From Deltaproteobacteria bacterium (GTDB taxonomy: Bacteria; Myxococcota_A; Polyangia; Polyangiales; JADJMO01): a DNA stretch of 64,000 nt. The translations under genes were made by a program, and so were the position numbers. Shown in pieces: positions 28,315 through 60,453 of the stretch; position 1 is the stretch's first letter, and every line of letters starts with the position of its first letter. Below the pieces are notes generated by a model. It searched no databases, was not told the origin of the DNA, and was given only the letters and a program-made list of their open reading frames with translations. Location: the NCBI GenBank assembly GCA_025363655.1, contig JANYDK010000116.1, forward strand, positions 1 to 64,000, given 5' to 3'.

Positions 28315-28343
28315 TTGCACGGATCGGCTTCTTCGCCTAGAGT
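28315..28343 (+). promoter_or_regulatory. promoter of rplU-rpmA with downstream C9 tract
   Basis: TTGCAC and TAGAGT are separated by 17 bases. The -10 is followed by GCG and then nine C (28347-28355), where transcription should begin. The same layout precedes rpmB and the S1 gene. Confidence 0.7.
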
Positions 28344-28403
28344 GCGCCCCCCCCCAAACCCACCTGGCCGCTTTCCCGCGCGCCAGAGTTCCAAGAGGTC
28401 ATC

Positions 28404-47311: not shown

Positions 47312-49210
47312 CTATTTGGTGATGCCCTTCTTCGCGAGGAGATCGCCGAAGGTGCCGAACTTCGCCGTCTGCTTCACCTGGTTCTGGTACTGCCGGAACG
47401 ACTGACGCTCTTGATCCTTCGCGAGGGCGCTGATCGACAGCTTGATGCCTCGCGGCCCCATCTCGATGATCTTGGCGTCGAGCTCTTTGCCGACCGGAAA
47501 GACGCGGCGGAGATCGGTGCCCTTGGGCGTGCCGGTCGCCATCGCGGTGATGTAGCCCTTGGCGTTGCGGCCCGTCTGTCCGACGATTTGCACGACGAGC
47601 CCCGTGAGCTCTTGCGCTTCGACGATGACCTTGACCGCTCCGTGCATCGCGAGGCGCGGCGGCGGGCGTTCACGCTCGCCTTGCTGCTCGCGCTCTCGCT
47701 GCAGCGGCACTTCGCCCTCTTTCGGCGCCATTTGGAGGCCGATTTTGTGCTTCTCGATGTCGTTCTGGGCGACGACCACCTCGAGCTCGTCGCCGACCTT
47801 CATCACCTCGCTCGGGTGCGCCAGCCGCTTCGTCGACGGCATGTCGCTGATGTGCATCAGCCCGTCGATGCCCGGTTCGAGCTCGATGAAGGCGCCGAAC
47901 GGTTGGAGCCGCACGACCTTCGCCTTGTGGAGGGTTCCACGGGCGTAGCGCTCGGCGGCGCCCTCCCACGGATCCTTCTCGACGGCCTTGCGCGAGAGCC
48001 AGACTTTGCCCTTCTCGTCGACGCGGAGGATCTTCACTTCGATCTCGTCGCCGACCTTGAAGATCTGGTTCAGCGGCGCGACCACGTGGGACGCCTCGGT
48101 CATGTGTACGAGACCGTCGACGCCACCGACGTCGACGAAGGCGCCGAACTGGGTGACCGATCGGACCACGCCTTTGACGACCTCGCCGACCGGCAGCTTG
48201 CCGATGACTTCGCCGCGGACCGCCCTCGCGGCCTCTTCGAGCGCGCCCTTGCGTGAGAGGACGAACTCGCGACCGCGCTTGGCGAACTGCACCACTTCGA
48301 AGGGCACGCGTTGCCCGATGAGGTAGTGGAGATCGGCGCCGAGGCGCAGATCGACGTGCGAAGCCGGTGCGAAGCCGCGGAGACCGCGAACGTCGACCTC
48401 GACACCGCCCTTGATGACGCCGGTGATGAGCCCGGCGACGGGCTGCTTGTCCTTGAACGCCTGCTCGACCTCGGTGCGGGCGAGCTGCCAGCGGTTGAGA
48501 TCGCGCGTGAGCACGACGAGACCGCCGCGCGCACCGTCGTTGGCGACCTTGCCGATGAAGCGCTCACCCTCGGTGAAGACCTCGCTCGTCGGTGCTTCGC
48601 TGCGATCGAAGATGCCGAGCGCCTTGCCGCTGACGTCGATCATCAGCGCTTCGTCCATCACGTTGATGATCTTGCCGACGACCTCTTCGCCAGCGCCGAA
48701 CGGCGGCTTCTCGCGCGGCGGACCGGCGGGCCTCTTCTTCGCCTTCTTGCCCGGCCCAGGCTGCTGGCCTTGCTGCGGCTTCTTCGCCTTTTTCTCGCCA
48801 GCTTCGGCGCCAGGCGCAGCTTCGCCTTCGGCTGCGGGCGCAGCTTCGCCGTCGTCGGCCTTTTCGTCGCCTTCTTCGTCGCCTTCGGCTCCATCGTCGG
48901 CTTCGCCAGCCTCGGAACCCTCGGCAGCGGCGGCCTCGCCCGGCGCGCCCTCGACCTTCGGCGCGTTCGGATCGCCCGCCTTCTTGCGACGACGACGACG
49001 GCGGCGCTTCTTCTTCGGCGCTTCGCCAGCTTCACCCACGGCGGCGGGCGCGGCTGCGCCTCCACCTTCGGGCGACGCGGTCGTCTCGGTTGCCTCGGCT
49101 GCCGGAGCAGCTTCGACGTTGGGGGCCGTGGTTTCTTGCGAGGGGACGCTCGGTGCCGCAGCAATCTCAGGCTGCGCTTCCGGCGTCGGATTCGAATTCT
49201 CGGTGGACAT
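47312..49210 (-). CDS. multi-S1-domain RNA-binding protein with charged disordered N-terminus
   Basis: 632 residues. Residues 1-170 are low complexity: Ala/Glu/Pro, a KKKRRRRRRRKK cluster, an acidic tract, and a second basic patch. Then S1 motifs: GKIINVMDEALMIDVSGKALG, GLITGVIKGGVEVDVRGLRGF, GVVRSVTQFGAFVDVGGVDGL and KVVRLQPFGAFIELEPGIDG are OB-fold cores; a fifth, less typical module is at the end. It resembles RpsA but has fewer S1 repeats and a novel tail. Probably binds mRNA in translation or decay; rnr is two genes downstream. Its promoter has the C-tract layout of r-protein genes. Confidence 0.9.
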   Translation of the reverse strand: MSTENSNPTPEAQPEIAAAPSVPSQETTAPNVEAAPAAEATETTASPEGGGAAAPAAVGEAGEAPKKKRRRRRRRKKAGDPNAPKVEGAPGEAAAAEGSEAGEADDGAEGDEEGDEKADDGEAAPAAEGEAAPGAEAGEKKAKKPQQGQQPGPGKKAKKRPAGPPREKPPFGAGEEVVGKIINVMDEALMIDVSGKALGIFDRSEAPTSEVFTEGERFIGKVANDGARGGLVVLTRDLNRWQLARTEVEQAFKDKQPVAGLITGVIKGGVEVDVRGLRGFAPASHVDLRLGADLHYLIGQRVPFEVVQFAKRGREFVLSRKGALEEAARAVRGEVIGKLPVGEVVKGVVRSVTQFGAFVDVGGVDGLVHMTEASHVVAPLNQIFKVGDEIEVKILRVDEKGKVWLSRKAVEKDPWEGAAERYARGTLHKAKVVRLQPFGAFIELEPGIDGLMHISDMPSTKRLAHPSEVMKVGDELEVVVAQNDIEKHKIGLQMAPKEGEVPLQREREQQGERERPPPRLAMHGAVKVIVEAQELTGLVVQIVGQTGRNAKGYITAMATGTPKGTDLRRVFPVGKELDAKIIEMGPRGIKLSISALAKDQERQSFRQYQNQVKQTAKFGTFGDLLAKKGITK

Positions 49211-49252
49211 GTAGCCTCGATCCCCATGCGGGGGTCGGCGGAGGGGGCGCGA

Positions 49253-49281
49253 ACCCTAGGACATTCGCGCGAGAGCGCCAA
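49253..49281 (-). promoter_or_regulatory. promoter of the S1 gene with downstream C tract
   Basis: On the minus strand TTGGCG and TAGGGT are 17 bases apart, followed by TCGCG and CCCCC (complement of 49243-49247). The -10 and following bases are nearly those of rpmB. Confidence 0.62.
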
Positions 49282-60017: not shown

Positions 60018-60046
60018 TTGACAAGACGGCGGGCTCCACGTAGGGT
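60018..60046 (+). promoter_or_regulatory. strong promoter of rpmB with downstream C tract
   Basis: Perfect TTGACA and TAGGGT at 17-base spacing, followed by TCCG and CCCCCTTTCT (60051-60060). Transcription should begin in the pyrimidine run, about 30 bp before the ribosome site AAGGAG. Confidence 0.78.
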
Positions 60047-60087
60047 TCCGCCCCCTTTCTCACCAGCCGTTCCGAAGGAGCACGCCC

Positions 60088-60453
60088 ATGGCGCGCAGCG
60101 ATCTCACCGGGAAACACAAGGTTCGAGCGCAGAACGTCTCGCACTCGAACATCAAGACCAAGCGCTGGCAGCGCCTCAACGTTCAGAGCCGTCGGCTCTG
60201 GGTGCCTGAGCTCAGCCGCTTCGTCCGTCTCAACGTGACGACGCGCGACCTTCGCTCGATCGACAAGCTCGGCTTCTGGCCGTTCCTCACGAAGACGCTC
60301 GACCGCCGCATGAACGCAGGCGTAGCCACGACGACCAAGGCGCTCTCCGGGCTTTTCAAGAAGCTCGGCATCGAGGTCGTGTTCGAAGAGGCCGAGGGTG
60401 GCGAGCACGTCCACGGTCCGGGCTGCGGCCACGAAGCCGCCGCCGCGAACTGA
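60088..60453 (+). CDS. rpmB: 50S ribosomal protein L28 with His/Cys C-terminal extension
   Basis: 121 residues against 60-80 usual. The L28 core is residues 5-72: LTGKHKVRAQNVSHSNIKTK, RRLWVPELSRFVRLNV, IDKLGFWPFL. The N-terminal Cys of many L28 proteins is absent. Residues about 75-121 are an extension ending HVHGPGCGHEAAAAN, a His/Cys cluster that could bind a metal. AAGGAG precedes the ATG. Confidence 0.93.
   Translation: MARSDLTGKHKVRAQNVSHSNIKTKRWQRLNVQSRRLWVPELSRFVRLNVTTRDLRSIDKLGFWPFLTKTLDRRMNAGVATTTKALSGLFKKLGIEVVFEEAEGGEHVHGPGCGHEAAAAN

Follow-up and report, generated by a model that had tools for sequence, protein, structure and literature searches.

A C tract in fixed register with the -10 element marks translation promoters in a Polyangiales genome and its relatives

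Promoters of the translation apparatus in a Polyangiales genome and its relatives share an element in which a GC-rich discriminator leads from the -10 into a run of C lying where transcription is expected to begin. The element keeps a fixed register relative to the -10, is specific for ribosomal protein (r-protein), rRNA and tRNA genes, and is conserved. Our reading, held with moderate confidence, is that this is a sigma-70 element of the translation regulon whose C or U starts make initiation responsive to ppGpp/DksA and to CTP. The layout suggests that ribosome production is controlled through an unusual and unfavourable RNA start.

Three translation promoters in the window

The original prediction named three promoters in a window of 64,000 nt (the whole stretch of DNA analysed, here contig C7 of an assembly that comprises 150 contigs and 9.03 Mb), each with a C tract at the expected transcription start of a translation gene. 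The closest named relatives of this genome are metagenome genomes of deltaproteobacteria or myxococci, followed by Sorangium and Polyangium, so that it probably belongs to the Polyangiales. Read directly from the sequence, all three are exactly as described. The rpmB promoter, on the forward strand, consists of a -35 TTGACA (60018-60023), a 17-bp spacer and a -10 TAGGGT (60041-60046), followed by TCCG, CCCCC and TTTCT (60047-60060). When columns are aligned on the -10, its predicted start lies at 60053-60055, that is at positions 7-9 after the -10, within a stretch from position 6 to position 15 that contains no purine. The gene behind it (60088-60453, +) encodes ribosomal protein L28 (Pfam PF00830, Ribosomal_L28, E 1.3e-20). 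The rplU-rpmA promoter, on the same strand, has TTGCAC (28315-28320) and TAGAGT (28338-28343), again with a spacer of 17, and then GCG and nine C (28344-28355), with the predicted start at 28350-28352 in the aligned columns. It precedes rplU for L21 (28404-28712, +; PF00829, Ribosomal_L21p, E 1.3e-44) and rpmA for L27 (28729-28998, +), the latter identified by its translation and its place in the operon. On the reverse strand, the S1 gene promoter has TTGGCG (49276-49281) and TAGGGT (49253-49258), likewise with a spacer of 17, followed by TCGCG, CCCCC and TCCG (49239-49252), and the same alignment predicts its start at 49244-49246. The corresponding rpsA-like gene (47312-49210, -) encodes a 632-residue protein with S1 domains (PF00575, E 6.1e-37, in three stretches). 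The Pfam matches bear out the claim that all three downstream genes serve translation. In the S1-domain protein, the N-terminal extension ahead of the S1 domains is long, charged and of low complexity, with runs of Arg/Lys.

The 17-bp spacing is present in all three promoters as claimed but is no special feature: spacings of 16-18 occur across the full set, and we do not count a spacer of 17 bp among the defining features. Two other candidate promoters that had been contrasted with the three do lack a C tract, but their -10s are also poor (TAGAAC and TAGGAG). A scan with the standard sigma-70 consensus recovered none of these promoters, whose -10s are TAGRGT, in the stretch scanned. No Rfam RNA family matched within the window, so no known leader riboswitch accounts for the C-tract layout.

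Register of the C tract

We aligned 18 translation promoters of the genome on the end of the -10 and numbered positions from there. C occupies position 2 and positions 7, 8 and 9 in all 18 promoters, and position 6 in 17. Positions 6-9 are free of purines in 17 of the 18, compared with none of 24 control promoters of the same -35/-10 type. The space between the -10 and the start is a GC-rich discriminator, with C or G at positions 2-6 in nearly all 18. The run of C at the start ranges from C4 to C9 and so provides the three or more identical bases that reiterative transcription requires. The predicted start, 6-9 nt after the -10, would fall within the C positions. Eleven of the 18 promoters were found through a C5 pattern in which the run could begin anywhere from position 3 to position 9; because the pattern left this choice free, the fixed register tells more than the search itself put in.

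The promoters are of sigma-70 type (TTGAC-like -35, TANNNT -10, spacing 16-18), and 14 of the 18 conform to TTG...TANNNT. The other four (rpmE, rpmH, rplS and rpsB) each depart from it in one element: the rpmE -35 is TCGACA and lacks the TTG, and rpmH, rplS and rpsB have poor -10s, which we placed in the alignment by eye. How far the pyrimidines extend differs between promoters. The rpmB, rpmE, rpsT and rplK promoters are purine-free between position 6 and position 14 or beyond, with continuations such as CCCCCCTCTCCCT in rpmE and CCCCTTTTTTC in rpsT. In rrn P1 and P2 there is a G at position 10, and several other promoters have a purine at positions 11-13. The genome has 67% GC, and C makes up 33.5% of its bases.

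Across all 18 promoters, the alignment upholds the idea that translation promoters as a class carry a C tract at the expected start. It adds to the original prediction the register relative to the -10 (C2, C7-C9) and the resemblance of the discriminator to the GC-rich one known from promoters under stringent control. A further addition is that rRNA and tRNA promoters carry the layout as well.

Specificity for translation genes

The pattern TAGRGT-N2-8-CCCCC has only nine distinct sites in 9.03 Mb, six of which precede rplU, rpsA, rpmB, rpsO, rpmE and rpmI; the remaining three lie upstream of a hydrolase gene, upstream of a lipoprotein gene or inside a coding region. When a -35 is required and the -10 relaxed (TTGN{19,21}TANNNTN{2,8}CCCCC), there are 12 distinct sites genome-wide, against five hits for the reversed pattern. 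Eleven of the 12 belong to translation (rplU, rpsA, rpmB, rpsO, rpmI, rpsP, rpmG, rplM, yceD-rpmF and two 16S rRNA promoters), and the twelfth lies within an open reading frame. Pfam was used in assigning rpsP, rpmG, rplM and yceD-rpmF. The two rRNA promoters stand in tandem 300-470 bp upstream of a 16S rRNA gene. A refined motif, TTGN{19,21}TANNNTNCNNNCCCC, has 18 sites in the genome, 14 of them at translation genes, with three for the reversed control. Among 39 TTGAC...TANNNT sites genome-wide, all four at translation genes (rpmB, rplM and two rrn) have at least five C, and four of the 35 non-translation sites have C4 or more (L192, L198, L202 and L217); two of these, L198 and L217, also have C at positions 7-9. 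Specificity is lost when the cut-off is C4 instead of C5, which admits leaderless genes (CCCC-ATG) of other function. Sites with TAGRGT-N6-CCCC-ATG or similar were seen at C35:166, C38:53243 and C87:24322 of this genome and at loci L393 and L400 of genome G015; this class likely represents leaderless mRNAs of non-translation genes, in which the C's lie just 5' of the start codon.

A sample drawn blind to function gives the same picture. It covered 864 kb (the window together with 800 kb from four contig stretches, 9.6% of the genome), in which 712 genes were called with a codon-usage script and 28 were preceded by a TTG-type -35 and a TANNNT -10. At least four C at positions 3-12 after the -10 were found in four of these 28, precisely rplU, rpsO, rpmB and rpsA, and in none of the other 24 (exact p 4.9e-5). 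Since three of these four come from the original prediction, the independent weight rests with rpsO and with the other tests. Equal frequency of the motif at other genes had been named as a refutation of the layout; other genes do not have C tracts at a comparable frequency.

We also located further translation genes with a concatenated E. coli protein query and read their upstream regions without selecting for C runs. The arrangement is present at rpsB, rpsL, rplK, rplC, rpsT, rpmH and rplS (agreement in seven of seven). In the same gene-first search no C-tract promoter lies upstream of rpsF, tuf, rplN, rpsM, rplJ or nusG, most of which sit within operons, tuf following tRNA genes; at frr a CCCC is present but out of register.

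Conservation

In four genomes of the same family, with genes named by eye from translations, the tract is found at rplU, rpmB, rpsL, rpsT, rpmI, rplM, rplC and rpmE, and also at rplV, rpsP, rpsO, rpsA, rpmG, rplK, rimK and rRNA-type promoters. It further precedes tRNA-Phe in three same-family genomes and tRNA-Pro in one. A complete genome from another family has 13 sites, including tRNA-Arg (two copies), tRNA-Asn, tRNA-Ala, rpsP and an S1-like gene. The rplU promoters of Sorangium, Polyangium and other Myxococcota (25 in all, 17 of them distinct) never deviate from C at positions 2, 8 and 9 and have only pyrimidines at 7 and 10; the length of the C tract varies among close relatives (9, 7 and 6 C). 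The rplM promoters of three families similarly keep the pyrimidines with a variable length of C, and in family f3 no matching promoter lies directly upstream of rplM. None of 34 distinct Bacillota rplU promoters has pyrimidines at positions 7-9.

A weaker form of the bias is seen in E. coli when the best-scoring promoter per gene is chosen automatically: C is at position 8 in 14 of 19 r-protein promoters versus 5 of 30 controls (p 1.8e-4), and positions 8-10 are pyrimidines in 12 of 19 versus 5 of 30. A fragment of E. coli rpsT P2 numbered -60 to +25 is drawn with +1 at the C that opens CCTTTG, at a distance of 7 nt from the -10 (PMC6970531). In view of this weaker bias and of the rpsT P2 start, the C run of the Polyangiales resembles a stronger version of a more widespread tendency.

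Discussion

The mechanism that we favour starts from the geometry of the element. A GC-rich discriminator of the form N-C-[CG]-[CG]-C after the -10 runs into a C/pyrimidine tract fixed at positions 6-10, so that RNA polymerase is offered only C or U at its preferred distance. Transcripts would then begin at the C's of positions 7-9, as 5'-CCC(U).... A C-rich non-template discriminator would make weak contact with sigma region 1.2, and this contact, together with a poor pyrimidine start, would be expected to give short-lived open complexes. Initiation would track growth through ppGpp/DksA and the CTP pool, and starvation would shut down the ribosome components jointly; the genome does encode DksA (PF21157 and PF01258, at C130:49231). 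Bacterial polymerase prefers to start 7 bp after the -10 with a purine at that place (PMC5730371), and its order of preference for the start base is A>G>U>C, with C least favoured (PMC3247240). The most active starts in Gluconobacter are mainly purines (PMC5756330). A promoter that offers nothing but C at this distance would thus start poorly, although these genes normally rank among the most expressed. Promoters inhibited by ppGpp/DksA are marked by GC-rich discriminators (PMC9304144; PMC7822876). Against our reading it can be said that C4 or more also occurs at four of the 35 non-translation sites, two of them with C at positions 7-9, that the -10s of rpmH, rplS and rpsB are poor and rpmE is without a TTG -35, that a GC-rich discriminator by itself needs no tract continuing past the start, and that the transcript start could scrunch to a downstream purine (G10 in rrn P1/P2, positions 11-13 in others).

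The last two points lead to a rather unlikely alternative, in which the element is a stringent GC-rich discriminator only, the C run is how such a discriminator looks in a genome of 67% GC, and the polymerase scrunches to the first downstream purine, leaving the pyrimidine start without function. Positions 1-5 do resemble the E. coli GCGCC and GCCGC, a scrunched start to the G of rrn P1/P2 would parallel E. coli rrnB P1, and a GC-rich discriminator is the known determinant of ppGpp/DksA inhibition. What speaks against this alternative is the strand-specific bias, with C and never G at positions 7-9 of all 18 promoters where G, A and C all occur in controls from this genome, as well as the purine-free stretch from position 6 to at least 14 in rpmB, rpmE, rpsT and rplK and the +1 drawn at C in E. 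coli rpsT P2 (PMC6970531). The tract might instead act in the RNA, as a 5' C/U tract read post-transcriptionally (through stability, a binding protein or slippage products) and hence as a true functional counterpart of 5'TOP. Such a role, which we hold to be improbable, would suit the pyrimidines that often extend the tract, as in rpmE and rpsT, and a homopolymer at the start allows reiterative synthesis in principle. However, untranslated rRNA and tRNA precursors carry the tract too, its most fixed part is locked to the -10, and its length is free to vary in the rplU of close relatives. The sharing by rRNA and tRNA and the tie to the -10 make a promoter role likelier than an mRNA role.

It is highly improbable that the C tract is the recognition site of a transcription factor or special sigma factor. 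The element is regulon-wide and sequence-specific, as such a site would be, but it is asymmetric and homopolymeric, lies over the start and has a fixed register. Its -35 and -10 are identical in type to those of the control promoters (TTGAC..TANNNT), so that a special sigma factor is not needed. We give practically no credence to chance or a compositional artefact of a C-rich genome. The frequency of C in the genome and the CCCC before ATG in leaderless genes could be cited for it, but 11 of 12 sites are at translation genes, none of the 24 controls has the tract and the invariant columns extend across Myxococcota. A chance origin was rejected by the reversed patterns, the function-blind sampling and the gene-first checks.

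The sigma-70 element proposed here has relatives in several known systems. It shares with the E. coli stringent promoters (rrnB P1, rpsT P2) the gene classes, the place after the -10 and a GC-rich composition with C at position 2. It differs in that the myxococcal C run spans positions 6-9, often further, and leaves no purine start; a similar response to ppGpp/DksA is predicted. The E. coli r-protein promoters that start at C or CCUU (rpsT P2, L11, spc, rpmE, rpmB) likewise have C8 and pyrimidines at 9-10, but their consensus is weaker and the long C run is missing. As in the initiating-NTP control of B. subtilis, one start nucleotide is fixed across a growth regulon, with CTP predicted here in place of GTP; the tract is missing from the rplU promoters of Bacillota. 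Start-site switching and reiterative transcription at pyrimidine genes such as E. coli upp likewise involve a homopolymer or pyrimidine start, but the genes differ, and slippage is putative here. The likeness to eukaryotic 5'TOP mRNAs and the TCT initiator, suggested in the original prediction, holds in form only, with translation genes and transcripts predicted from the DNA layout to begin with C and a pyrimidine tract. Nothing points to a TOP-reading protein, the polymerase is another one, and TOP is read on mRNA, whereas rRNA and tRNA share the bacterial layout. In the literature searched, the coverage of which was partial, no paper was found to describe pyrimidine starts as a class among bacterial r-protein promoters; this does not prove novelty.

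A purine start is the expectation for the strongest bacterial promoters. That a fixed C-start layout is common to the r-protein, rRNA and tRNA promoters of Myxococcota and is echoed in E. coli suggests that growth genes have been selected for a poor start. The broadest interpretation is tentative and, to our minds, open to considerable doubt: Myxococcota, and weakly Proteobacteria, may begin all RNAs of the translation apparatus (mRNA, rRNA and tRNA) at C by design, as a CTP-sensing counterpart of the GTP-sensing Bacillus growth regulon that independently parallels eukaryotic TOP initiation form for form. In practical terms, a sequence rule picks out the translation regulon from raw DNA, and the supply of pyrimidine nucleotides can be linked, in a testable way, to the alarmone ppGpp and to ribosome synthesis.

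Other genes behind C-tract promoters

A GAPDH-like gene in a genome of another family (L153, G009) lies behind TAGGGT-CCG-CCCCCC, so that membership may reach past translation genes in some lineages. A rimK-like gene, of the ribosomal S6 modification family, follows a -10 and C tract in two relatives, at L091 (G001) and L133 (G002), and the L133 product matches Pfam Rimk_N. A small basic protein (MGKFDRRHSQKMKRREAQAKKKARAARR...) with no Pfam match is encoded in this genome at C116:83619-83774 (L324) and in relatives at L128 and L141. The relatives' copies have C-tract promoters, while L324 has TAGCAT-GCTCGACCCTCC; the protein is a candidate ribosome-associated small protein. A second small orphan protein (MANRAIWSMRKRHEWL...KMKRSGRLRIGLQDALDRK), also with no Pfam match, is encoded behind a C-tract promoter in two relatives, at L081 (G001) and L109 (G003).
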